A DNA stretch of 64,000 nt from Prosthecobacter debontii (GCA_945905735.1 CAMDQC010000002.1:1-64000); one strand, 5' to 3'; counted from the stretch's first letter, positions 1,353 through 17,364 are shown. The notes: a model not told the origin generated them from the sequence alone. Numbers and translations are program-made.

Positions 1353-1795
1353 GCAGCCCGCTTGAATTGGACGTGAGCGCGAGCCTTTGAAATGTGAGTC
1401 TAAGCAATCTTTTATGTGCGCCAGCCTCAAACCCGGTTAAAGCGACCACCACCCTTTTCTTATGAGGGAGCTGTTTTTGCACCTTCCACTTTTTTTCGGC
1501 CTCCAAATCCCTCAGTGACGCCTTCCGTGCGTCACAACGCCTGATAAACGAGCTATTTACGCTGCTTTGCGGAATTTCATCACGGTGCATGTGAGGTGGA
1601 AGGTTGCCCACTTTTCGTGACCGCGCTTTACACCGCGCGTGCGGCGATCGGGGCGCTGGTTTTCGTTGTTCGCTGCCGGAAACGCAGGGCACGAAAGGAT
1701 GGTGCAAGGCGCGGAGCCAAACCGTTGTGCTCAAGTTTCGTGTCGCGCGTTTGTTCCATCTTGTCGCCTGCATGGAGATGCACGGTGTTGAAATC

Positions 1796-1908
1796 GGGAC
1801 GGTTGGGACACCGATTTAGACCCCTTGCGTAACGCGTGCGCGGGCGCATGTGTGCGCGCACACACACATGTGCATGGAAAGGTTTGCGAAAAGCGTCCCA
1901 ACCGTCCC
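1796..1908. repeat. Perfect 14-bp inverted repeat around a CA/TG-rich near-palindrome
   Basis: GGGACGGTTGGGAC at 1796-1809 is matched by its exact reverse complement at 1895-1908. Between them, at about 1843-1876, lies an alternating purine-pyrimidine, near-palindromic CATGTGTGCGCGCACACA-type tract. The arms contain two GGGAC units each. This layout resembles protein-binding or origin-type repeats of mobile elements; that reading is inference. Confidence 0.7.
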
Positions 1909-2079
1909 ATTTTCCGCACGGTGCATGATGGTGCAAGAGACGTGCGTTGAACGAGCCTTGCGACCCCTGGTTTGGTGGCGGAGAGAGCGATCTTGTTGCG
2001 CAACGAGACCGGGCCATCGAGCCAAAGCCGTCCGTTCATTGCGCAATTAGCGCCGGCCTCACAGCACGCGGAAACGGCA

Positions 2080-2103
2080 GATAGTCGTGTCGACACGATT
2101 ATC
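2080..2103. promoter_or_regulatory. Operator-like palindrome 1 (24 bp, one mismatched pair)
   Basis: The core TCGTGTCGACACGA (2085-2098) is a perfect 14-bp palindrome. It is extended by GATA on the left and TATC on the right with a single G/T mismatch on each side. It lies 53 bp upstream of the excisionase-like gene and shares its half-site with palindrome 2. A dimeric regulator binding here would be placed to control the cassette. Confidence 0.6.
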
Positions 2104-2122
2104 TCGGGTGCGTCGGAGGAAA

Positions 2123-2140
2123 GTTCGTTTTGACACGAAC
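2123..2140. promoter_or_regulatory. Operator-like palindrome 2, overlapping a TTGACA box
   Basis: GTTCGT and ACGAAC flank TTTGAC, and the central 14 bases match palindrome 1 at 12 positions. The centres of the two sites are 40 bp apart, close to four helical turns. A TTGACA hexamer (2130-2135), like a -35 box, sits inside this site, but no convincing -10 box follows at the normal spacing. Confidence 0.5.
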
Positions 2141-2156
2141 ATTGGGGCAAAACGCC

Positions 2157-2387
2157 ATGTCCACGCCTTCCACCAAACCGACCTACGTCTCGCTGCACCG
2201 GCTCGGGCAGCTCTCGGGCAAAGCCCGCAACACGCTGCTGCTGCGGATGCGCGACGGCGAGCTGGTCGCCGATGCGCAGCTCGACCTGGGCGGCCGGCTG
2301 CAACCGATCTTCGCCGCCGCACGAGTGGCGGATCTGAAGCGCATGCCCTCGCGCAAGGCTGCGCCCGCCGTGAACCCGATGCTCTGA
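2157..2387 (+). CDS. Small excisionase/MerR-like helix-turn-helix protein
   Basis: This is a 76-residue protein starting at the ATG at 2157. The segment SLHRLGQLSGKARNTLLLRM followed by RDGELVADAQLDLGGRLQPIF has the layout of HTH_17/excisionase-type winged helices: a helix, a turn, a recognition helix ending in R-x-R-D-G-E-L, then a two-strand wing. It is the first gene of a plus-strand run leading to a coat protein, and two palindromes lie just upstream, so it may regulate the cassette. Sequence similarity to the family is weak by eye. It could instead be a small structural protein of the element. Confidence 0.5.
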   Translation: MSTPSTKPTYVSLHRLGQLSGKARNTLLLRMRDGELVADAQLDLGGRLQPIFAAARVADLKRMPSRKAAPAVNPML

Positions 2388-2413
2388 ACCCAAACCCGAA
2401 AAACGAGACCGCC

Positions 2414-2983
2414 ATGCAAAACGAATTCCTGACCCTGACCAAAGCCCTGAATGTCCCGCTGCTGAGCGACGACGACATCGACGCGCTGCACCGGCTGCAA
2501 AAGCAGTGGGCGCACTGGAGCCAGCGCGAACGCCAGCACGCCGCGGCACGCGTCGCCGAGGAGCAGCAGGCTGCGTTCAACGCGTTCCTCGACAACCCGA
2601 GCGCCGAGGCTGAGCAGCGGCTCCTCGTCACCGCCGACGCGAACCTCACCGGGACGCGCTATGCGACGCTGCGGCGGGCCTGCGCCGCGTTGCGTGGGCG
2701 AATCAGCGCCCAGGCGGCCTGTATCATCCGGCCCGCGCTGGATCGTGCGATCGAGGCCCTGCGCGCCGAGCACGCGCGCCGTCGTGAAATTGCCGAGCCG
2801 GTCATGTCGAGCAAGGACCGCAACCCGGTCGTCATCGAGGCGCAGCGCGCGGTGGAATATGCCGAGCGCCTGGCCAATCGCGTGCTGTGGGCGAGCGATG
2901 GAAAGACGGGCACACAGCCGCTGGAATTGGCCGATGTGCTCAACGCTGGAGCCAACGATTTGACACCGGAGGACGGGAAATGA
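2414..2983 (+). CDS. Uncharacterised helical protein of the capsid cassette
   Basis: This is 189 residues from the ATG at 2414, 26 bases after the previous stop. No family was recognised. The protein is rich in Ala, Arg and Glu with long predicted helices (DDDIDALHRLQKQWAHWSQ, the REIAEPVMSSKDRN region, AVEYAERLANRVL) and no signal peptide or membrane segment. Its stop overlaps the start of the next gene by four bases (ATGA), so the two are probably translationally coupled. Position upstream of a coat gene and helical composition would fit a scaffolding or head-assembly role, but nothing in the sequence proves it. Confidence 0.6.
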   Translation: MQNEFLTLTKALNVPLLSDDDIDALHRLQKQWAHWSQRERQHAAARVAEEQQAAFNAFLDNPSAEAEQRLLVTADANLTGTRYATLRRACAALRGRISAQAACIIRPALDRAIEALRAEHARRREIAEPVMSSKDRNPVVIEAQRAVEYAERLANRVLWASDGKTGTQPLELADVLNAGANDLTPEDGK

Positions 2984-3339
2984 TGACCATCGAACATCGC
3001 CTCGCCACCGTGGTTTCCCTGCTTCCGCCGGGAGCCAAAGCCCGCTTCACTGCACCGCTCAGTCCCGATGAATCCACCGACACCCGCCTGGTGGAAGCGG
3101 TGCGCGCCCTCGCAAAGGCGGAGGGATTGAACTGTCTGACGCCGGGCGAATTTTCCCGCGCCCTGGTCCAGCAGGCAGCGCGGCTCGCGATGCCGACAAC
3201 CAAGCCGCCTGCCGCTGATGGAAAGCCTGAGGACGACCTCGCCGCCCGATTCGCCGCCATCACCGACCCGCGCGCACAGACCGCGTTCTGGCGCTCGCTC
3301 AGCGCCGAGCAGCGCGCCGCCATTCTCGAAACCAAGTAA
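2980..3339 (+). CDS. Uncharacterised small protein upstream of the coat gene
   Basis: This is 119 residues with the start at ATG 2980, overlapping the previous stop; a second ATG follows directly at 2983. The N-terminal half (MTIEHRLATVVSLLPPGAKA, LVEAVRALAKAEGL, FSRALVQQAARLA) is helical. A Pro-rich linker at about residues 75-85 leads to a C-terminal helical segment that ends in AFWRSLSAEQRAAILETK. No catalytic motif is visible. The coat protein gene begins 12 bases downstream, so the two are in one transcription unit. A scaffold or minor head protein is possible; the family is unknown to me. Confidence 0.6.
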   Translation: MMTIEHRLATVVSLLPPGAKARFTAPLSPDESTDTRLVEAVRALAKAEGLNCLTPGEFSRALVQQAARLAMPTTKPPAADGKPEDDLAARFAAITDPRAQTAFWRSLSAEQRAAILETK

Positions 3340-3351
3340 CCGCCCACAGCC

Positions 3352-4245
3352 ATGCCCAATACACTCACGAACGTCCAGGACATCAAGGTCGCGCAGAATG
3401 CGCTGCTGCCTTTCCGCGGGGCGCTGCTGCCGATCCGCGCCTTCTCCAGCAATTTCTCGCCCGACCCGGCCGAGAAGCTCGACACCGTGCGCGTGCCGGT
3501 GGTCGGCGCACCCACGCAATCGAGCGACTTCGCGGGCAGCTACACGGCGAACCCGGATTCCACGGTCACGGTGATTCCGGTGTCGCTCAATCGGCACAAG
3601 TTCAAGACCGTCCACGTCACCGCGCGTGAAGCCGCCGAGACGGCGTTCAACGTGCTCGACACGCTCGTCTCCGCCGCGGTGAAGCAGCTCGCGCAGGACG
3701 TGCTCCAGGACATTTTCTCCGCGATCACGGCGGCAAACTACGGCGCGCCGGTGATCCCCGCGCTGGCGGCCAGTGCGTTCGATTACAAAAAGCTCCTGGC
3801 GATCCGGGAGGCGTGCAGCGACGTGAAGATGCCCGTGACGGATCGCTCGCTCGTGCTCGATGGCGCCTACTACACGAACCTGCTCGGCGATGATGTGGTC
3901 GCGAAAGGCTTCGTCCCGCAGGTCGTGCAGCCTGGCATCATGGACGCGATGATTCGCCGTCTCGCCGGTTTCGATCTGCACGAGACAGTGATCCTGCCGG
4001 AGAACGGCGAGAAACTCATCGGCTTCGCGGCGCACCCGAGCGGCATGGCCGTGGCGATGCGCTACTTGGTGCCCGCCGCCGAATACGACGAAGCAGGTGC
4101 CATCACCGATCCCGAGACCGGCCTCACGTTCGGCTACCTGCGCTACAGCGAGACGAGCAGCAACCGAGTCTTCGTCACCGTCGAGTGCCTCTACGGGTTC
4201 AAGACGGCGCTGGCGGATGGCATCAAGCGGATCGTGAAGCCGTAG
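3352..4245 (+). CDS. Phage major capsid protein, P22 coat-like (HK97 fold)
   Basis: This 297-residue protein resembles phage coat proteins of the P22 group. It has an N-terminal segment with LPFRGALLPIRAFSSNF and DTVRVPVVGAPTQ, a central pattern of beta strands around SLNRHKFKTVHVTAREA, a helix-rich part (AVKQLAQDVLQDIFSAIT), and a C-terminal domain with YLVPAAEYDEAG and GLTFGYLRYSET. It would assemble into an icosahedral shell. No portal, terminase, protease or tail gene is present nearby, so it belongs to a stripped-down or domesticated element. An encapsulin-type compartment is an alternative for a lone HK97-fold protein, but no cargo enzyme is adjacent. A terminator follows at 4281. Confidence 0.75.
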   Translation: MPNTLTNVQDIKVAQNALLPFRGALLPIRAFSSNFSPDPAEKLDTVRVPVVGAPTQSSDFAGSYTANPDSTVTVIPVSLNRHKFKTVHVTAREAAETAFNVLDTLVSAAVKQLAQDVLQDIFSAITAANYGAPVIPALAASAFDYKKLLAIREACSDVKMPVTDRSLVLDGAYYTNLLGDDVVAKGFVPQVVQPGIMDAMIRRLAGFDLHETVILPENGEKLIGFAAHPSGMAVAMRYLVPAAEYDEAGAITDPETGLTFGYLRYSETSSNRVFVTVECLYGFKTALADGIKRIVKP

Positions 4246-4280
4246 CGGCACGGCACGAAAACATCCTCAAGTTGCGATGA

Positions 4281-4316
4281 GCCTCGCTGCTGGAAACGGC
4301 GGCGAGGCTTTCTGTT
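4281..4316 (+). terminator. Rho-independent terminator of the capsid cassette
   Basis: GCCTCGC at 4281-4287 pairs with GCGAGGC at 4302-4308 around a GC-rich loop, and the hairpin is followed by TTTCTGTTTT. It closes the plus-strand transcription unit that ends with the coat protein. Confidence 0.75.
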
Positions 4317-4437
4317 TTCGCCCATGATTTCGCGGCATCCTTCGCCTGACAAAAGCAGGACAAAAACCTTCACTATCGCGCATTTCCCTGCTACGAGTCC
4401 TCTTGTCTGCATGTAACAACATGCACGACATCAACCA

Positions 4438-4584
4438 CTAACTCATCACCCTGAAAAGCGGGGGAACCTTGTAGGGCTCGAATGTCGACTGCGGTGATGG
4501 CTTTGCCGCTGCGGGCGCAACGGGCTTCTGAACAGCTTTCGCCGCTGGTTCTATCCCGAAGAGTTTTTGAAAGAACGATTTCAT
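4438..4584 (-). CDS. Small 48-residue basic/Pro-Ala protein
   Basis: The frame starts at ATG 4584 and ends at TAG 4438-4440. It encodes MKSFFQKLFGIEPAAKAVQK, then a Pro/Ala-rich linker and the ending FEPYKVPPLFRVMS. The start has an amphipathic, basic N-terminus and the composition is unlike a random reverse frame. It lies 34 bases downstream of the antitoxin-like gene on the same strand and may be the last gene of that unit. No family was recognised. It is too short for confident calling, and the whole stretch 4317-4618 holds nothing else that I can support. Confidence 0.45.
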   Translation of the reverse strand: MKSFFQKLFGIEPAAKAVQKPVAPAAAKPSPQSTFEPYKVPPLFRVMS

Positions 4585-4618
4585 TCAGAATCGGGCGTCG
4601 CTGTTTCCACGGCTGTTC

Positions 4619-4852
4619 TCACCTCTCATCACCCTCCACCGGCGGGGCGTCTGGGACGCGGGCGAGGATTTCATCTACGCGCTGCCAATCCACACGGGCG
4701 GCGCGCTCGGCGATGGTGGGGCGGTGGGGGGCGTGGTCGAGTTGTGCGGTGAGGGCGGCGGCGATGAGGCTGTCCACGGTGATGTGCTCGCGGGCGGCGA
4801 GGTCGCGGGCTTGGCGGGCGATGGTTTCCGGTAGTTCGATGTGGAGCGTCAT
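4619..4852 (-). CDS. Antitoxin-like protein paired with a PIN toxin
   Basis: This is 77 residues starting at the ATG at 4852, which overlaps the stop of the upstream PIN gene in an ATGA. The N-terminus MTLHIELPETIARQARDLAA and the following helices (HITVDSLIAAALTAQLDH) resemble a ribbon-helix-helix DNA-binding antitoxin. The C-terminal tail (ERAARVDWQRVDEILARVPD) looks like the toxin-neutralising peptide seen in such antitoxins. The gene order is toxin first, antitoxin second, the reverse of the common arrangement. Longer upstream extensions of the frame are compositionally odd and unlikely to be translated. Confidence 0.72.
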   Translation of the reverse strand: MTLHIELPETIARQARDLAAREHITVDSLIAAALTAQLDHAPHRPTIAERAARVDWQRVDEILARVPDAPPVEGDER

Positions 4853-5268
4853 GATGAGGGAATCATCGCTGCGAAGTGGCGGGGCGGCAAGACTTCGATG
4901 CCGAGTGTGTGGGCGATGCGAAGGTGGCGGAGGTTGTGGGTGACGATACGGCAAGCGGCGGAGTCGTAGGCGAGTTGGACGAGGGGTTCGTCGTCTGGGT
5001 CTGGCAAAATCGGGAGCCAACCGGAGGCGAGTTGCCATTCCTCGGCGCGGGCGCAGATGGCGTCGAGCAGGGCGTCCACGTCCGCAAAGGTGAGGCCGAG
5101 TTCCGTGGCGTGGCGCTTGAGGATTTCTTCGTATTCGTGGACGAGGTGGTTGCTGAGGACGGCTGTCCAGCGGCCTTGGCGGAGGGCGGTGAAGACCTCG
5201 AACGACCAGCCGAGCCGAGAACGGAACGCGGAATCAAGAACGTTCGTATCCATGACGGCGCGAATCAT
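4849..5268 (-). CDS. PIN-domain toxin (COG1569-type ribonuclease)
   Basis: The start is taken at ATG 5268 (MIRAVMDTNVLDSAFRS); a GTG at 5286 would add six residues. The MDTNVL motif supplies the first acidic residue of the PIN active site. Further acidic positions are seen in HEYEEILKR and in LPDPDDEPLVQLAYDSAA, where the D-D/E pair is typical of the family, and the C-terminal part is ACRIVTHNLRHL. PIN toxins of this group are Mg-dependent RNases held inactive by the cognate antitoxin. The downstream partner overlaps by four bases, so the pair is translationally coupled. Confidence 0.82.
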   Translation of the reverse strand: MIRAVMDTNVLDSAFRSRLGWSFEVFTALRQGRWTAVLSNHLVHEYEEILKRHATELGLTFADVDALLDAICARAEEWQLASGWLPILPDPDDEPLVQLAYDSAACRIVTHNLRHLRIAHTLGIEVLPPRHFAAMIPSS

Positions 5269-5444
5269 TTCAACGGCGGGTTTCACGGTCGTTCATGTGA
5301 GTGTGGAGTCGGTGTGTTTTTGATGACTGGAACTGACGTGCGCAAGCTGGCGATGTGCGCGCTTTTTGCCAAGCGTGTTATTTCCACAACGGGCAACGTC
5401 CAGCTTGCCGAGCGCAGCGGTTTATCCCATCCAACTCCGCACCA

Positions 5445-9259: not shown

Positions 9260-11302
9260 TTAAGCCGCGTAGTATTTTGGATACCGGTAATAGTAGTAAT
9301 CCGGCAACTCCGTATCAACACAGTTCATAATGAGCCCCAGGACATTCACTTGCCGTTGGTAGAGCGCATTTAGAGCGTTGCGGGTCAACCGCGCAGACGT
9401 AAATGACGCGCGGATTACCATTAAAGTTCCGTCGAAATTCGGCGCGAGTGTAGGCGTATCATCCGTCGCAAGGATCGGTGCCGTATTGAAGACCACCAAG
9501 TCATAGCGCGCCTTCCATTCATCGAGCAATTTCTGCACGATAGGAAGCAAGAGCAACTCGCCCGACTGGTTCGTAACCGGTCCGCGCGGAATGATATGCA
9601 GCTTACCGCCTCGCACTTCTTGGACGGAATTCTGCCAAGTCACCTCCCCACGCAGAATGTTCGAGAGCCCCTGACGCCCATCAATATCAAAAAGCGCCGC
9701 AATATCCCCTCGACGCAAGTCCGCATCCACAAGGAGAACTCTCGCGCCCGCCGCAGACATCGTGACGGCGAGGTTACTCGCGACCGTAGATTTGCCTTCG
9801 TTCGGAATCGCGCTCGTCACAATCAGAGTCTTTAGCTCCGTCTGATTTGGCATAAAAATCAGCGAAGACCGCAAGCTGCGAAACGCCTCTGCAAACATGT
9901 AGCGGTCATCGTCCTCCTGCAAAAGCGGCAAACCAGCCTCAGTGCGCGTATCCGCCACATCGGGAATCTGCCCCAAAATCGGCTCGGCAAACTGCTCAAT
10001 CATCTCACTAGAGGAAGCCAATCGGTCATCCGCACGGTCGAGCAAAAACAGAATCCCAAGCCCCAACAAGAAACCGCCAATCAATCCAGTCAACAGATGC
10101 CGAACCACTCCGCGAGGTTCCTCCGTCGGAGTCTGCGCTGCGTAATGGATTCCGATGATCTCACCGCTATTTCCCTGCTCATTCTTCATCTTGGCGATTC
10201 GATCATCCGTGGTCTTCACTTTCTCCAAAGCCGAATCCACATTCATCTTCAGTTGGCGGTAGCGGAGCATGACAGAGCTCCATTTCACAGATTCCTCTGT
10301 AACTTCTTTAAGTTTTATCCGCGCCTGGTCGAGTTCGGTCTCAATCCGCTTAATCTGAGCTTCACGCCCAAGTTTTGCGAATTCAGACAACGTCTTGATC
10401 TCAGCATCTAGGGATTCGATCTCGTCAACAGCGGCGATATACCTTGGGTTTTTAGGGAGCCAAATCTCTTTCTTTTTCGCGAAGTCAGAGTCTTTTTTCG
10501 CCCGCAACTGTTTCAATGTCACCAGATTGTTGGCTGCGGGCGACGCTGATTCCTCTCCTTTGGTCGAGCCGGTTCCGCGCAAAACCTCACCGTCCGACAT
10601 CGATTTATACAGGTTCAAATGACTTTCGAGCCCACTAATCGTATCCTGAACCTTGTTCGTCTGGAGTGTGAGGTCTTTTTCCCGCTCTTCGGGAAGTGGC
10701 ACTTTGATGTCTTCTTTAAGCTTAAAGAGGGTATCTTTCGCTTCTTCCGCCAGTCGATTCTCGTCTGCGAGACGTTTATTGAGGTCGGCGATGACTTTTC
10801 CGTTGATCACAGCAGTCTCGTCCTCGCGAATCGCCAAGAACTCCTTCATCACGGTATCGACGTAAAACTGCGTAAAATCAGGGTTCTGCCCCGTCCCTGT
10901 CACAATGAAAAAGAACGTGTTTATTTCGTTCTCCGCGTTGATTTCAATCCGATCGACTTCCCCAATCCACTCGGGCTTCAAAACGGCTACCTGAGCCCGA
11001 GCACGCTCTCTCACTTGGATTCCCTTGAGCTGGGAAATCACATGTCCATAAAAACTGGGCAAATTGACCATCCCATTCATCCTTTCGTCAGACCCAGTGA
11101 GGCGCACGCTGAGTTTGCCAAAAGATACGAAACGAGTGGGCTTTGAAACTACGACGTAGGTTTCATAAAGAAGACCGATACCGATGGTGAGTGCTAAAAT
11201 CCACCAATAACGCCTGAGAACGGCGCGGTAGCGGTAAAAGCGAACTCCGAGTTTTGATCCAAGTTCCGCACCTGCGGCGGATGGGTAGGCTGGCGATTCC
11301 AT
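9260..11302 (-). CDS. Wzc-like polysaccharide co-polymerase / tyrosine autokinase with altered Walker B
   Basis: This 680-residue inner-membrane protein has a Wzz-type chain-length domain between two membrane segments (about 33-52 and 402-420). A long coiled coil links them. A cytoplasmic BY-kinase domain follows, with Walker A SAIPNEGKST (about 497-505) and Walker A' VLLVDADLRRG (about 520-530). Walker B reads DLVVFNTAPIL near residue 604, with Asn where the family has Asp. The protein ends in a Tyr-rich tail, ELPDYYYYRYPKYYAA, the usual autophosphorylation cluster. Proteins of this family control length and export of exopolysaccharide with an SLBB outer-membrane partner, which is encoded 13 bases upstream. 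The loss of the Walker B Asp may weaken or abolish kinase activity. Confidence 0.93.
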   Translation of the reverse strand: MESPAYPSAAGAELGSKLGVRFYRYRAVLRRYWWILALTIGIGLLYETYVVVSKPTRFVSFGKLSVRLTGSDERMNGMVNLPSFYGHVISQLKGIQVRERARAQVAVLKPEWIGEVDRIEINAENEINTFFFIVTGTGQNPDFTQFYVDTVMKEFLAIREDETAVINGKVIADLNKRLADENRLAEEAKDTLFKLKEDIKVPLPEEREKDLTLQTNKVQDTISGLESHLNLYKSMSDGEVLRGTGSTKGEESASPAANNLVTLKQLRAKKDSDFAKKKEIWLPKNPRYIAAVDEIESLDAEIKTLSEFAKLGREAQIKRIETELDQARIKLKEVTEESVKWSSVMLRYRQLKMNVDSALEKVKTTDDRIAKMKNEQGNSGEIIGIHYAAQTPTEEPRGVVRHLLTGLIGGFLLGLGILFLLDRADDRLASSSEMIEQFAEPILGQIPDVADTRTEAGLPLLQEDDDRYMFAEAFRSLRSSLIFMPNQTELKTLIVTSAIPNEGKSTVASNLAVTMSAAGARVLLVDADLRRGDIAALFDIDGRQGLSNILRGEVTWQNSVQEVRGGKLHIIPRGPVTNQSGELLLLPIVQKLLDEWKARYDLVVFNTAPILATDDTPTLAPNFDGTLMVIRASFTSARLTRNALNALYQRQVNVLGLIMNCVDTELPDYYYYRYPKYYAA

Positions 11303-11315
11303 ATCAGATAGTGCC

Positions 11316-12026
11316 TTAAAAGTTCCACTTTAGCGCCGGAACGAATATCCGGTCGCCATCTCTTAACGGAAAATCGTTCTTCGTATTTCCCTTCTCCAAG
11401 ATGTCCTTCACATTGTATTCGCGTGTCTCACTCCCCCGTGTTACCCGTACCTTCTCCAAATCAGACCAGGAAGTAGAGCCCGCCTCGTTGACTGCTTCTG
11501 ATAATGTCTTCGGAGCATTCGAGTAGAACTCCACCGCTCCGGCGCGCGCTACTTTTCCAGACATGATGACTTTCGATTTCGTCTGTCCACTCATTGGAAG
11601 GACATTGAGACCGATCACCACGGTAGCCTTCCCGTGCTTGTAGTAGCGACCTTCAAGATAGGATTTTACGGCCGATGCTGCCTGTGAGGAAGTCATCCCG
11701 TTCACATCGACGCGCCCCATTCCACCGGGAATCTCTAATTCACCGGTGTCCGCAATAATTGCACGAACTGGCGCTTCGTTCTCCTCGACAATCTTAAACG
11801 AAACCTCCGCCCCAGGAGCCAAAGGCGTGTTTGGAGAAACTGCCACTGAGCGCCCTGTATCCGCCGAGCGAATCTCGGCTACTGGCTCGGTTGGCGACAC
11901 CGCAGGCGCGCCCGCTCCAGGGCGACCTGTCGGCTTGAAAAAACTATTGGACTGCGCACTCACCGAACTGGTCGCCGATATGATGAGGGCGACCGCCCCG
12001 AGGAATCGAATTGGAAAGTTACGCAT
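11316..12026 (-). CDS. Polysaccharide export protein with Poly_export and SLBB domains
   Basis: This is 236 residues beginning with a signal peptide (MRNFPIRFLGAVALIISATS ... VSAQ). It has no lipobox Cys, unlike classical Wza. Residues about 70-145 look like the Poly_export domain (PGAEVSFKIVEENEAPVRAI, VDVNGMTSSQAASAVKSYLE). Residues about 155-225 look like an SLBB domain (VIMSGKVARAGAVEFYSNAP, KTLSEAVNEAGSTSWSDL), ending in FPLRDGDRIFVPALKWNF. It should act in the periplasm or outer membrane as the export partner of the Wzc-like protein encoded directly downstream. The outer-membrane barrel gene 14 bases upstream may supply the missing pore function. Confidence 0.88.
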   Translation of the reverse strand: MRNFPIRFLGAVALIISATSSVSAQSNSFFKPTGRPGAGAPAVSPTEPVAEIRSADTGRSVAVSPNTPLAPGAEVSFKIVEENEAPVRAIIADTGELEIPGGMGRVDVNGMTSSQAASAVKSYLEGRYYKHGKATVVIGLNVLPMSGQTKSKVIMSGKVARAGAVEFYSNAPKTLSEAVNEAGSTSWSDLEKVRVTRGSETREYNVKDILEKGNTKNDFPLRDGDRIFVPALKWNF

Positions 12027-12040
12027 AGGCCATAGTGATT

Positions 12041-13411
12041 TTAAAATTTATAGTAGAGACTAAACATCCCTAGATTCTGTTTGTAATCAGAGTCAGGTCT
12101 GTTCGAGTCTTTCATAAGAAAGCGATAATCGAGCCCAAGTGTCAGAGAATTTGATAGGATGTGGTGAATTCCCAATGCAAGCCCCAGTCGACGAGCCTCT
12201 TCCGGAACGGCCCCCGATGTCTCATAAGATTCGTAAAACGCTGTCGGAGTGATAGATGTGCTTTCGCGCAAGAGCCAGTCGGCAGAGTATTCAAAATGGT
12301 AGAGGTCGTAAAAATTCGACCCTAATCCGCTCTCAGTTGTGCGAGAAGCAGTGAGGGAATGGCGGAAGTTTTCACTCGGACGGTTCGTGATCTGGACCTT
12401 AAAATATATTTCCTCACTGTCCTGGGTATCTTGGATGAAAAATGGCGCTCCGGCGACTCCATTGGCGACAGGAACGATGAGTTGGAGGGTCCCACCGTCA
12501 TAGTCCGATTTTTGCCATCCGACTTCGCCATAGAAATCCGTATTGTCAGAAACTTTGACCTGGATGTACGGACCGACCAGCGTGGTTTTTCCGTCCGCTT
12601 GGATATTCTGTTTATAGTCCGCCCAACTCACGGAACCATTCAGTCCAACCGTCAGTCGTGGGTTGATGTCAACGCTTGGCCGAATGAAAACAGTATTGAT
12701 GGTACGATCTTGCGGGGCAAACGTTTCGTCTTTGGCCCAAAGGTCGAAACGGTCGAATCCCACAGAAACGCGGGCGTATTCTGTCGCCTCCCAGTCAACT
12801 TCAATGCCAGATTGGTTCTCCCAGCGTTTATAGTTGGCGACGTTGCTGAGAACGGGAAGATCAAACGGATCCTCCTGGTACGAAATGCGTTCCCTTAAGG
12901 TAAAAGTAAGACTCCCAGTTTTTACCGTCCACACGATCGCGGAGGTGGGCGATAGGATCACAGATTCCGAATCGAATTCGCTATGACTGAGGTATTTTGC
13001 GTATCCCAAGCCGATTCCGAATCGAAGGGTGTTTAATTCAGACACCCTCAAAATCCCCTCGATATTTATCTCGGGACGAAGCACGATGTCGCTTAATTGA
13101 TTGGAGTGCGAAAGGGTAATGTTATCGTTAAATTCGACCCCGATACCCGCAGCGATTACAAAATCAACCAGACCCAAGCGGAAATTGTATTTTTCTTCCA
13201 CAGCCTGTTGATCTACCGCATCGACAGGAGATAGCCCATCTGGTGAATTGCCGGCGAAGACGCCCGCAGAAGGGGTTAAACGACCGATACCGCTGGAACT
13301 GCGCGAAGTACCAAATTCGCGAAAAAACTCCTGCGAATAAGCAGGCGCAGCCAAGCAGAGCAAAGCTCCAGCAGTGAGAACCGGATAAACCCGACCAGCA
13401 AGAATCTTCAT
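12041..13411 (-). CDS. Outer-membrane beta-barrel protein of the exopolysaccharide block
   Basis: This is 456 residues with a clear signal peptide (MKILAGRVYPVLTAGALLCL ... PAYSQ). The mature part is made of alternating amphipathic strands with aromatic girdles (TLRFGIGLGYAKYL, SLTFTLRERISYQ, TLGLDYRFLM) and ends in the terminal Phe motif FSLYYKF that is typical of BamA-inserted barrels. No Pfam-level family is certain by eye, but similar barrels accompany exopolysaccharide export genes in other bacteria. It sits between the kinase-like gene and the SLBB gene on the same strand with short gaps (79 and 14 bases). A role as the exit pore is inferred. Confidence 0.8.
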   Translation of the reverse strand: MKILAGRVYPVLTAGALLCLAAPAYSQEFFREFGTSRSSSGIGRLTPSAGVFAGNSPDGLSPVDAVDQQAVEEKYNFRLGLVDFVIAAGIGVEFNDNITLSHSNQLSDIVLRPEINIEGILRVSELNTLRFGIGLGYAKYLSHSEFDSESVILSPTSAIVWTVKTGSLTFTLRERISYQEDPFDLPVLSNVANYKRWENQSGIEVDWEATEYARVSVGFDRFDLWAKDETFAPQDRTINTVFIRPSVDINPRLTVGLNGSVSWADYKQNIQADGKTTLVGPYIQVKVSDNTDFYGEVGWQKSDYDGGTLQLIVPVANGVAGAPFFIQDTQDSEEIYFKVQITNRPSENFRHSLTASRTTESGLGSNFYDLYHFEYSADWLLRESTSITPTAFYESYETSGAVPEEARRLGLALGIHHILSNSLTLGLDYRFLMKDSNRPDSDYKQNLGMFSLYYKF

Positions 13412-13490
13412 AATAATTTTAATACCAAAGCACGCTAAACACCGAATTCCTAGATAGATGGCAACCCGAAAAACGCTTCAGTTTATAGTG

Positions 13491-16400
13491 CTACTTCGGC
13501 TTTACCGCCGGTTTACCACCCTCTGAGGCCCTGACGACTCGGAACCCGTAAGTGTCATTAGATGCATCAGGTTTCGCGTTATAGCGGCACGACGCAAGCA
13601 GTGACGGCTTGATTCCGCCATTATACCACGAACCTCCCCGCAACACCTTACTCTCTTTTGCTTCATTAAAATAATCATTCGTCCATTGCCAGACATTACC
13701 CCCCATATCATTGAGTCCAAACGCGTTGGGCTTAAATTTCCCGACCGGCGAAGTCCACTGAAAGTCATCGCGGTATCCTTGGAGTTTCACTTCGGAATTG
13801 GTTTCCTCTCCCGCATAATTTCCCGCACCCGCTGGCGGTGGCCAGTCTATGCCCCATGGAAATATCCCATCCACTCCTAGGTCACGATCTTCCGGCGTGG
13901 CTCCGCTCTCTGGGGGCAGTCCAACAGCACGGCTCCACTCAAAATCAGACGGAAGTCGGTAGAATTCGGTAGGTTTGATGGCTCCTGCCTTCCGATCTTT
14001 CTCAGTGAGCCACTTACAAAAGGCGTCCGCCTCTTTCCATGTGACGTTCACCACGGGATGATCCTCCTCTTGAGTAAATCCCGGAGTGCGCCAACTGCCA
14101 CCTTTCAGCTTCTTTTCATTCGCAAATGCCTCATAATCCTTTCGAGTCACTAGATTCACGGCGAAATCAACATCGTCGATCTTCACAAAGCGCATCCCAA
14201 TGGAATTTACTCCATTTGTCGTAGCGGCAGACTTCGGGGGAAGCGGTTGAGGTGTCGGCACCGGAGGAGGCTGCAGGGTCGGCTGAACTGGCTGGGCTGC
14301 ATTGACCGGCGAACTCGCACCGCCAAGTTGCGCTATTTCATCGCGCAACGCTTTGAGTTGAGCATTGGTAGCGGCGATTCGTTCGGAGATAGGCTTAGCG
14401 GCGGGGATTCCGGCTTCGCCGATGTCCTTCAGTCGAACAAGGACATCTTCACAGCGCTTAATATCGGACTCAAGCGGTGCGATTTTTTTCTGCAAGTCTG
14501 CGATCTTTGCTTGGTTTTGCACGCGCATCGCCTCAAGCGCGCCCGCTTTCGCTTTTTCGACCGCGGCGATCAATAGCGCCCTTTCTCGTTCGATTTGCTG
14601 AAGTCCCAGAGCCGCTTGTTGACGCAGCGCGAGGACTTGCGTTTGATTTTTCCCAAACTCTTCAGATTGCTTTGCTTGCTCTACGATTTTCTGGCCAAGC
14701 TCCCTCAGTTCTTCATCGGCTTTTTTTGCGGCTTCCAGCTTTACTGCGGCTTGCTGGACGAGCGTCTCGTAGGCCGTCTTCGCAGCATCCGCAACCTTGC
14801 GCGCCTCAAGCGCCAGCGCCTCGGACCGACTCGCCTCTTCTTCGCGTTTCTTCCGTTCTACGACCAATGCATCATTTTCTTTCAGCATGGGGGTGAGCAC
14901 CTTTTTACGCTCGTCGAGAGTCTTGCGCAGGTCTTCCTGCGCTTTTTTGGCGCGGTCCGAAAGATGCAGTATCTCCTGTTGCGCCTGCTCGGCCTCCCCA
15001 GCAGTTTGTTTTAATAACACTTCCACATTGCTACGCTCCGCGATTAGCTTTTCTAGCGTTGCAGTGTCGGCTCCCGGCGGAATCGTCAATTTTGCAGGCA
15101 TCTGGGGCAGCGGCGGAAGCTTCACAGCCACGCCAACCACCAGTTGCGCTGGGACTTTCACGTCAGGCGGGCTCGTGGGCACTTGAGGCGGTATTTCAGG
15201 TTCCACTTTCGGTGGAATTTTCGCCCCTATGATTTCCCGCTTCGAGGGCTTCGGAACCATCACCGCCGACTTGTTTGGGTCATCACTAGGCGGGCTCGGA
15301 GGCGGGGTTATTGGTGAGATATCAGCGGGATTTGAAGGCAGCGTGGAGACAGGAATCGGAAGAGCTGCGACATTTTCCACCGGGAGGGGCAGATTCCGAT
15401 TGACGACATCCTCGGGAACTGGCGGGGGCAGACTTCCATCAAGCGGCGGTAATTGCGAATCTCCTTTTGGCAGTGGAAGTGACTCAACAGCACCACTCAC
15501 ATCCGGCGACACGACCGCCACGTTACCAGCACCATCATTTGTATCCCCTGAGTTGATTTTTTTAACGCGAACTGCGGAACTTGGGTTAATCACCGCAAAC
15601 GCGGCCAAGCCGACGGCAAGTCCTGCCATTACGACAGGCCATTTTGACTTAGGCCGAGACAGTTCCGGAAAATTCGAGGAAAGATTGGCTTTCGGTCCGG
15701 ATTGACGATTGGCAGGTGCAACAGGCGGCGCAGGAGGTGCCTGTTGTGCCTTTGTTGTCGCATTGCTATCGGGGACGACTGGTTCAGGTGGAAGGGTCGT
15801 GTCTTTAATCGCCGCAAACTCTGGCGCCTCAGTTACAGGGGCTGGATTAAAGTGCGCCGCCGTATTTCCACCAAACGAAACCCGACGCTCCGCGCCGCCG
15901 CTCTTAACGGGTGCCCCAGGCGCAGAAATCGCCGCCGGACGGGGAGGTGCCGGGGAGTGCACCGGTTCCGCTTCCGCTTTAGTAACAGGCGGCGCTTCCG
16001 GCATCGGGGTAGAGGGACCAACTCCCGCAGTACCCGCAGACGAATGAATCAAGGCAACCGCAGCACCACACGTTGCCGGGCGTTGCTCCGGCGCTTTTGA
16101 CATGCACGCCGCCACAAAACTCTCCCACTCAGAAGCAACTGGAGCTCCAAGCAAATCCGCAACGCGCGGTGCCGGCGTGGTGCGAATCGCAGGCACCACA
16201 TCATGCCCGGAAAACGGCAATTTCCCCGAAATCAACTCGCATACGAGTACTCCAAGCCCGTAAACATCATCGCTCTTCGTCGGCTTTTCGCCATCAACCT
16301 GCTGTGGGCTCATATAGGCCATGTGGAGTGAATCAGATGACAATGAACGAGTCCGCTCCATTGCATCACGAATACACCGTGCAACTCCAAAATTTGTCAC

Positions 16401-16892
16401 AAAGAGCCCCCCGCTCGGCCGCACGTAAATGTTCGACGGCGCAATATCTCGATGAAGCAACTGCACACGATGCGCGTCATCCAAGGTTCCTGCAAGCTGT
16501 TGAATCCACGCTTTGATCTCGCTCGGTTCGAACCGGCCTTTCCGCTTTAACAAAGACTCCAAAGACTCGCCGTCAAAACGATCCATCGACACTGCGGCAA
16601 AACCACTGCCCTCAACAAAATCATACACACGAAGAATGTGGGGATGAATTAATTGGCGATTTCGCTTCACCTCCTGGCGCAGTTCCGCCATCCCTCGCTG
16701 ATCGTCCAAAATCGCCAGCGGAACAAAGTGAAGCGATACCTCTTTCCCCAAAACCTCGTCGTTGGCAAGCCATACGGCGAGACCCGACTCACCCGGAATT
16801 TCTCGGTTGAGGACGTAGCATCCCGCTAGTTTCTGACCTGCCACAAAGGCGTTTTGGCTTGTATTGGATGATGAGTTCGCTTCGTTTTGCAC
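13491..16892 (-). CDS. Pseudokinase-like membrane protein fused to a formylglycine-generating-enzyme-type domain
   Basis: This is 1133 residues starting with GTG at 16892. Residues about 20-285 are a Ser/Thr protein-kinase fold with an intact catalytic loop (LLHRDIAPSNIYVR). The loop that is normally DFG is NFG (TNFGVA, about 167-169). The beta-3 Lys position reads VSLHFVP with His, and the Gly loop is degenerate, so catalysis is doubtful. A Pro/Ala-rich linker follows, then one membrane segment near 416-434, a further Pro-rich region, and a long coiled coil at about 627-830. The C-terminal domain (about 890-1125) is SUMF1/EgtB-like (SIGMRFVKI, GGNVWQWTNDYF, VLRGGSWYNGG, YGFRVVRASEG). Kinase outside or inside and FGE-like domain in the periplasm would link sensing to the export genes downstream; that is inference. 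Confidence 0.85.
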   Translation of the reverse strand: MQNEANSSSNTSQNAFVAGQKLAGCYVLNREIPGESGLAVWLANDEVLGKEVSLHFVPLAILDDQRGMAELRQEVKRNRQLIHPHILRVYDFVEGSGFAAVSMDRFDGESLESLLKRKGRFEPSEIKAWIQQLAGTLDDAHRVQLLHRDIAPSNIYVRPSGGLFVTNFGVARCIRDAMERTRSLSSDSLHMAYMSPQQVDGEKPTKSDDVYGLGVLVCELISGKLPFSGHDVVPAIRTTPAPRVADLLGAPVASEWESFVAACMSKAPEQRPATCGAAVALIHSSAGTAGVGPSTPMPEAPPVTKAEAEPVHSPAPPRPAAISAPGAPVKSGGAERRVSFGGNTAAHFNPAPVTEAPEFAAIKDTTLPPEPVVPDSNATTKAQQAPPAPPVAPANRQSGPKANLSSNFPELSRPKSKWPVVMAGLAVGLAAFAVINPSSAVRVKKINSGDTNDGAGNVAVVSPDVSGAVESLPLPKGDSQLPPLDGSLPPPVPEDVVNRNLPLPVENVAALPIPVSTLPSNPADISPITPPPSPPSDDPNKSAVMVPKPSKREIIGAKIPPKVEPEIPPQVPTSPPDVKVPAQLVVGVAVKLPPLPQMPAKLTIPPGADTATLEKLIAERSNVEVLLKQTAGEAEQAQQEILHLSDRAKKAQEDLRKTLDERKKVLTPMLKENDALVVERKKREEEASRSEALALEARKVADAAKTAYETLVQQAAVKLEAAKKADEELRELGQKIVEQAKQSEEFGKNQTQVLALRQQAALGLQQIERERALLIAAVEKAKAGALEAMRVQNQAKIADLQKKIAPLESDIKRCEDVLVRLKDIGEAGIPAAKPISERIAATNAQLKALRDEIAQLGGASSPVNAAQPVQPTLQPPPVPTPQPLPPKSAATTNGVNSIGMRFVKIDDVDFAVNLVTRKDYEAFANEKKLKGGSWRTPGFTQEEDHPVVNVTWKEADAFCKWLTEKDRKAGAIKPTEFYRLPSDFEWSRAVGLPPESGATPEDRDLGVDGIFPWGIDWPPPAGAGNYAGEETNSEVKLQGYRDDFQWTSPVGKFKPNAFGLNDMGGNVWQWTNDYFNEAKESKVLRGGSWYNGGIKPSLLASCRYNAKPDASNDTYGFRVVRASEGGKPAVKPK

Positions 16893-17364
16893 GGCTCGTA
16901 TGCGCTGATCGTTGACTTGTGTTGAATTGGCACTCCACGCGAAAAACGTGGCTCAGCTACTTTCGCAGCTACGACGGTCCTAGTCGGCAATGAGTAAAAC
17001 GACAACAGAAATCATGCATCCTCAAAATCTCCGGCGAGGACTCCCGCCAAGACGGGCGCCACGTACTCGTGGAAGCAAAGCATCAGCCCGCAATCCCCCG
17101 CAGCGGATATTTTACAGAACGGGATCAATGCCCTCGCCCAAAGCACTCCAAAAAGCGACTTTTTTAAAACAATTTTCTTTCCATGCAAAAACCGACCCAC
17201 TAAAAACTTCTCAAGCCCTCGCATTTTCTATAAAATATTACTTGCAAAGAAAATAGAAAACGATACAAACGCCGTAATTTCCATAATTTCACACGACCCA
17301 AATTCGAAATAAAACCTGTTTGCAAAACTCAAACATCCCGATAAAAACTCACAAAGCAAAACCC
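16893..17364. other. Divergent intergenic region with hairpins and an AT-rich promoter-like part
   Basis: No gene can be supported in these 472 bases; two short overlapping frames (16990-17256 plus and 17012-17224 minus) have no family signature. The part near 16935-16994 can fold into a compact structure. A second CCACG/CGTGG hairpin is at 17059-17072, followed by GCAAAGC. From about 17160 to 17364 the DNA is clearly AT-richer than the surroundings, with TATAAAATATT-like boxes near 17232, and probably carries the promoter and leader of the gene at 17365. Confidence 0.6.
16935..16994. ncRNA. Candidate structured RNA element (unassigned)
   Basis: On the plus strand CCACG (16935-16939) pairs with CGTGG (16947-16951) around a loop containing GAAA. 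CTCA (16952-16955) can close a three-way junction with TGAG (16991-16994), enclosing hairpins AGCT/AGCT (16955-16970) and CGAC/GTCG (16972-16986). It lies between an exopolysaccharide-type gene and a secreted protein gene. It does not match a riboswitch consensus that I can name. Confidence 0.3.

Follow-up and report, generated by a model that had tools for sequence, protein, structure and literature searches.

What is an intact phage-like coat gene doing in a bacterial chromosome where no portal, terminase or tail gene stands near it? The question is raised by a locus in a 64,000-nucleotide stretch of Prosthecobacter debontii DNA (GCA_945905735.1 CAMDQC010000002.1:1-64000), which was analysed as a whole and which we call the window. 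Four intact plus-strand open reading frames (ORFs), in the order g1, g2, g3 and coat, span positions 2157-4245. A first-pass annotation of this DNA had correctly recognized a four-gene unit ending in a coat-like gene and a terminator, and had proposed that it is a satellite using a helper phage, a domesticated capsid nanocompartment or a decaying prophage. We consider it highly probable that these four genes form the capsid module of an integrative satellite of the Chthoniobacterales, similar to phage-inducible chromosomal islands (PICIs), which would exploit temperate tailed phages of the same order. As judged from gene content, this satellite family encodes its own scaffold derivative and HK97 coat, and no portal, protease, terminase or tail genes. 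The element family, its gene content, its integration sites, a shared putative operator and the constraint on its genes can be read directly from the sequences.

The capsid genes and their relatives

The coat gene (3352-4245, plus strand) encodes 297 amino acids, which we assign to the HK97-fold major capsid proteins from a profile match, a structure prediction and a tree of coats. The protein matches PHROG 283 (major head protein) with an E-value of 8e-27. Its AlphaFold2 model, based on an alignment with 77 homologs, has an HK97 fold (predicted local distance difference test, pLDDT, 86; predicted template modelling score, pTM, 0.82). The top Foldseek matches of this model are phage capsids (Douge 8zdh, E-value 8e-12); encapsulins occur among the fold matches, a P22-like coat, that of CUS-3, reaches just rank 19, and no N-terminal delta domain is apparent in the sequence. 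Because the fold is HK97-like, phage capsids match best and a P22-like coat appears only at rank 19, the word "coat" in the first-pass annotation was correct, while its qualifier "P22-type" lacks specific support. Its statement that integrase, portal, terminase, protease and tail genes are missing also held: TerL, portal, protease and tail queries from the same phage family, run over the 64 kb, matched only where g3 overlaps the scaffold (the hidden Markov model libraries covered part of the window's genes), and related integrases found no match in the window.

Relatives of the coat occur in 23 of the 213 genomes of the order, and scanning viral contigs yielded 114, 80 of which were retained. 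Nearly all of the latter (79/80) are preceded by a phage scaffold or protease gene, with portal and terminase present wherever the contig is long enough; terS, terL, portal and head maturation protease were confirmed by PHROG in related full phages. Coats 76-82% identical to the window's sit in complete Verrucomicrobiota prophages of the same family and genus. Coat loci at or below 82% identity have a phage protease/scaffold upstream, and the loci at 71-73% in the order likewise have protease and scaffold there. The exceptions, which lack the phage head set, are the loci nearest to the window, with coats 86-89% identical: L033 (G000:C233), a second copy within the window's own genome with 80% DNA identity; L032 (G008, record CAMAUI010000129); L034 (G014, VFJQ01); and L062, on a viral contig (L, G and C denote loci, genomes and contigs). 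No homologs of the terL, portal, protease or tail genes of this phage family were found in the window, L032, L033, L034 or the satellite part of L062.

In a quick tree search over 77 coats, those of the five stripped cassettes group together as a single clade within the phage coats (Shimodaira-Hasegawa-like approximate likelihood ratio test, SH-aLRT, 99). Frameshifts in most relatives would have pointed to a remnant, but all frames of the stripped cassettes are open, and the within-clade ratio of nonsynonymous to synonymous substitution rates (dN/dS) is 0.07-0.18 for coat, 0.21-0.37 for g3 and 0.28-0.49 for g2. A single coat clade with intact and constrained frames argues for a lineage with conserved gene order, and not for repeated prophage decay. 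The earlier preference for a functional unit is thus upheld by divergent copies, and the recurring cassette that was to be sought in verrucomicrobial genomes does exist, in that the order g2-g3-coat recurs. As a separate observation, large host-like gene pairs adjoin a prophage coat or coat fragment in L040 (G002:C89, 4870-9512; 1075 and 470 amino acids) and L051 (G008:C98, 1503-6532; 1191 and 479 amino acids); the pairs are mutually related, an odd insertion point common to two genomes.

Directly before coat lies g3 (2980-3339, plus strand), a mini-scaffold of 119 amino acids that appears to join a new N-terminus to the coat-proximal C-terminus of a phage scaffold. Its start overlaps the end of g2 by ATGA, the coupling that had been noticed at the outset. 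Each of the 85 related phage loci has, at the coat-proximal end of its protease/scaffold ORF, a match to residues 66-119, whereas residues 1-65 find a match in none of the 85; no convincing PHROG or Pfam family was found for g3. In related phages, the matching end is part of the scaffold encoded directly 5' of coat. From this position and by analogy with other scaffolds, g3 may be a shortened satellite scaffold that keeps the coat-binding end.

The product of g1 (2157-2387, plus strand; 76 amino acids) is a small helix-turn-helix-like protein. Its designation as a regulator can stand on its appearance and its homologs, which directly precede g2 in L032, L033, L142, L144, L145 and L146, although no Pfam or PHROG model gave a hit. 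The marker gene of the satellite family is g2 (2414-2983, plus strand; 189 amino acids), whose product is predicted to be all-helical (AlphaFold2 pLDDT 86); it has no convincing PHROG or Pfam match, and its predicted fold has none in PDB or BFVD. This gene is present in 7 of the 213 genomes of the order (one being a weak fragment) and absent from the viral contigs scanned, and among 388 genomes sampled elsewhere in the phylum it was found only in the window's own. As a marker, g2 led to elements in G090 and G051 that have g1-g2 without g3-coat. A role for g2 in packaging or size control would be a guess.

Mobility, a shared palindrome and the ends of the element

We regard the G051 element as the decisive sequence evidence that the family is mobile. 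It starts with a 442-amino-acid integrase gene and an AlpA/excisionase-like gene (PHROG 66); a primase/helicase-like gene (by PHROGs) directly precedes g1-g2, and defence-type genes close the element. Its two junctions, separated by 28,341 bp, share the perfect 17-bp repeat TCCCAGAGGAACTTCAC, and the element splits an amidoligase gene of a full prophage with a related coat, one half of the gene lying on each side. None of these integrase, AlpA/Xis-type and replication genes is present in the window copy, and the latter two types are absent from L033 as well. In L034, a tyrosine integrase gene, split by a frame change, and a helix-turn-helix gene lie upstream of g2. The L032 cassette is followed by a type I restriction system between coat and the right end, which abuts the truncated prophage gene c15 exactly where c15 resumes; the left side is off the contig. 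The L062 cassette is followed by methylase and helicase genes and abuts early genes (MCVVL/amidoligase/ligase) of a prophage extending on to terL. The targets in helper-type prophages are minus-strand genes away from the late operon and opposite to the satellite operons. L034 and the window copy are located in the host chromosome. No tRNA attachment sites were found near the window, L032-L034 or other satellite loci, and no convincing short direct repeats flank L034.

Several accessory gene sets were seen beside these elements. G090 holds three coat-less g1-g2 satellites in one genome (L142, L143 and L144), each followed by two small ORFs and an opposite-strand defence-type or accessory gene set that differs among the three. 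The L034 satellite adjoins genes that, by eye only, resemble a proteasome pair and a Pup/UBact-like small protein (2156-3902). In the G051 satellite (L180), a 1453-amino-acid protein with weak similarity to GajB (10838-15199) and a kinase-like gene (16108-16902) are possible new defence cargo.

A possible link to helper phages is found upstream of g1. The palindrome AGATAGTCGTGTCGACACGATTATCT (2079-2104), a putative operator with an exact core TCGTGTCGACACGA at 2085-2098, is shared with helper-type phages. A second operator-like palindrome, TTCGTTTTGACACGAA (2124-2139), lies 17 bp upstream of g1 and has 2 mismatches to the core, matching from 2125; at the equivalent place before g1, L033 and L146 carry TTCGTGTTGACACGAA. 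Shuffling predicts 0.33 core matches in 64 kb, with at least two anywhere in 3 of 100 shuffles, and the best palindrome site in the window is the one upstream of g1. Phage DNA totalling 0.98 Mb contains 20 core sites with up to one mismatch, against about 0.7 expected, and nearly all of them precede portal, protease or terS-like genes by 18-118 bp. Given a palindrome common to helper terS, portal and protease genes and to g1, expression of the module probably starts along with that of the helper head genes. The simplest reading, a prediction from sequence, is that one helper regulator would act on both the helper head genes and the satellite operon.

The limits of the window copy were partly recovered. 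The core of the unit that had been placed at 1353-4316 is real, but homology to other copies begins at about 1395-1430 and the right limit is at about 4467. The left non-coding part (1395-1989, plus strand, up to the inferred left limit) is 67% identical over 1406-1989 to the copy at L146 (G002:C111), and to the same degree, from 1526 on, to the L033 copy; 1395-1501 is a 66% match to non-coding L145:5283-5389, 5' of replication genes in the G051 satellite. As had been described, 0.8 kb of repeat-bearing non-coding DNA precedes the genes: it contains a large imperfect inverted repeat (1763-1941) with 47-nt arms at 1763-1809 and 1895-1941, whose hairpin is moderately more stable than shuffled sequence (DNA fold z -2.7). 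The left non-coding stretches of L033 and L146 also contain an inverted repeat, and an origin or a packaging site is a possible function. In L146 itself, a satellite left-end segment occurs twice (2992-3169 and 4113-4289, about 94% identical), flanking a PIN-domain toxin gene, and the second copy leads on to g1 and to a g2 that is cut short at codon 53.

On the right, a strong hairpin terminator with a T-rich tail (4256-4320, plus strand) stands directly 3' of coat and is common to helper-type phages; DNA similarity to phage loci extends through it, to about 4319. It is followed by a conserved right end (4335-4467, plus strand) that resembles other satellites: 4335-4462 is 79% identical to L032:8886-9013 and recognisable also in L062, L142 and L145. 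Some 110 bp before the junction, the right ends of five elements carry direct repeats of the TGACAAAWGCNKGACAA type (in the window, TGACAAAAGCAGGACA at 4347-4362), and a similar direct repeat occurs just before the integrase at the left end of the G051 element; such repeats look like integrase arm sites. Similarity to other satellites stops at about 4462, and 4468-4768 is 84% identical to an uninterrupted Ser/Thr kinase locus in G005:C86; the kinase is intact in G002:C92 too. The uninterrupted genes in G005 and G002 indicate that the window copy inserted at about codon 40 of a host kinase gene, with the insertion point GAGCCCTACAAG at 4466-4477 (minus strand).

The left end of the window copy yielded no attL (left attachment site), no integrase and no remainder of the kinase gene. 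Of the direct repeats and empty sites that were to be looked for, the 17-bp repeat in G051 and the uninterrupted kinase in G005 were recovered, but not the window's attL. The best hit for a kinase-gene remainder elsewhere in the window's own genome is 37% identical, so that the remainder is either lost or unassembled. VapBC at 4619-5286 was considered as satellite cargo and rejected, because VapB adjoins the kinase gene in G005 without a satellite and so belongs to the host flank. A clean empty site at trmD was likewise rejected: synteny breaks at 5395, with 94% identity to G002:C29 rightwards (trmD and beyond) and unrelated genes in G002 leftwards (malQ side), and these differing upstream genes mark 5395 as a separate rearrangement. 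The window copy may be a left-deleted derivative or a member of a small-format subgroup.

Weighing the explanations

If the cassette is a satellite's capsid module, induction of a helper prophage would bring a helper DNA-binding protein to the palindromes before g1, just as to those at helper terS, portal and protease, and g3 and coat would be made while the helper head genes are expressed. Satellite coat and shortened scaffold would then join the helper assembly pathway around the helper portal, and helper terminase would fill the satellite-coat shells with satellite DNA; g1 and g2 would have a part in regulation or in the choice of what is packaged. The window copy would be a stranded descendant in a host kinase gene, with its right end and capsid operon intact and its integrase end and any replication genes gone. 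Several points weigh against this account. The window copy has no integrase; only L034 joins an integrase to the full g2-g3-coat set, and there the integrase gene is frame-split; the G051 and G090 elements carry g1-g2 but lack g3-coat; and L142, L144 and L145 have no such palindrome before g1. In addition, some known PICIs can be transferred without their capsid genes (PMC10111431), which makes interference, instead of packaging, a possible role for the coat. A bolder version, in which the satellite replaces the helper's scaffold and coat and builds its own shell around the helper portal under the helper head-gene operator, with the window, L033 and L146 as integrase-less units of about 3 kb moved in trans via the right end, seems to us doubtful.

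For the capsid step, interference without packaging is a serious rival, possible if on balance rather unlikely: coat and g3 would poison helper capsid assembly as an anti-phage defence. Ccm, the coat homolog of the Staphylococcus aureus pathogenicity island (SaPI) SaPIbov5, sits at pentamers and redirects helper assembly (PMC8569155), satellite cargo slots hold restriction systems, and the immobile-looking window copy still keeps its operon. However, interference and packaging are coupled in SaPIs, this satellite supplies both scaffold and coat, and the strong full-length constraint on the coat fits the building of a working shell. Decay would make the cassette what remained of a prophage after deletion of everything else. 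The complete prophages with 76-82% identical coats, the missing integrase and rearranged left flank of the window copy, and coat fragments in G014 and G008 are what decay might leave, and the window copy has indeed lost its integrase end. For the module this explanation fails: g2-g3-coat stands in this order at four loci whose DNA has diverged, the coats fall into a single clade under purifying selection, the window's right end matches other satellites, and, while coat relatives do sit within full prophages, g1, g2 and the g3 N-terminus are absent from phages. We therefore hold decay to be very improbable. The nanocompartment first envisaged, a capsid compartment retained by the host for cellular or gene-transfer use, would suit an intact operon in a stranded copy, a genome with two copies, and the known domestication of HK97 shells, encapsulins being among the fold matches. 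It is scarcely credible in view of the patchy distribution of g2, the retained scaffold piece, the lack of a conserved host neighbour or linked cargo enzyme, the phage coats as nearest relatives, and copies at different sites, several inside prophages. The option of a satellite with a helper remains well supported for the family, by the coat clade, the integrase, AlpA and replication genes of relatives, the attachment-site repeats, the helper-embedded copies and the shared putative operator.

Comparison with known satellites

All five stripped cassettes (for L062, its satellite part) apparently share one hallmark of PICIs, an incomplete set of virion genes and dependence on a helper; a helper is suggested by the shared palindrome and the common coat/scaffold end. 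Other phyla are already known to harbour coat-bearing and helper-embedded satellites, and the variant in Verrucomicrobiota is new; the literature searched contains no report of phage satellites in this phylum. Among Gram-negative PICIs, 21 of 29 reference elements have a major capsid gene, and PmCI172 is linked to small capsids (PMC6092414, PMC10111431). Elements such as EcCICFT073 and PmCI172 resemble the present family in having int, AlpA and replication genes, a likeness seen in gene content. The present family differs in that scaffold and coat share one operon with g1-g2 under a putative operator shared with helper head genes, and in that two intact-looking elements lack a coat. Helper-embedded PICIs (HE-PICIs) also lie inside a helper prophage gene; they have a short block of identity and, close to the ends, a DNA motif that occurs twice (PMC10111431). 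The G051 element, with its 17-bp repeat and split amidoligase, is embedded in the same way; the window copy lies in a host gene instead. However, HE-PICIs target late genes in late-gene orientation, whereas the targets here are minus-strand early-side genes (amidoligase, c15), with opposed operons.

Other known systems share single features. P4-like satellites and P4/P2 hotspots also hold defence cargo in a variable slot (PMC9122126), but P4 has the external scaffold Sid and no coat, while the present family encodes a coat. Phage-inducible chromosomal minimalist islands (PICMIs) are likewise very small satellites with little gene content (PMC10803314); they lack capsid remodelling genes, whereas the window element consists mostly of capsid genes. 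Capsid-forming PICIs (cfPICIs) encode a complete head set (coat, portal, terminase and protease), and this family only a scaffold derivative and coat. Encapsulins are HK97 shells with linked cargo and no scaffold; the present family shares the fold but has a scaffold derivative and no linked cargo enzyme.

A further parallel is found in the cos-type SaPIs, of which SaPIbov5 encodes a homolog of the helper HK97 coat, Ccm, and takes its other head and tail genes from the helper; Ccm stands at pentamers and needs helper coat (PMC8569155). It is the sole satellite protein found in small capsids and cannot form shells alone, whereas the present family places a shortened scaffold next to a coat with no apparent delta domain, and its hosts and helpers belong to another phylum. 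With features of Gram-negative PICIs, SaPIbov5 and HE-PICIs, the present family joins a scaffold derivative to a coat, has early-side minus-strand targets and occurs in Verrucomicrobiota. It yields a defined satellite lineage, a probable helper phage family (one member being a prophage in the cultured Chthoniobacter flavus Ellin428), exact attachment sites and a candidate shared operator. A scaffold derivative beside a coat would be a capsid-redirecting route distinct from the Sid, CpmAB, TcaP, Rcm and Ccm solutions.

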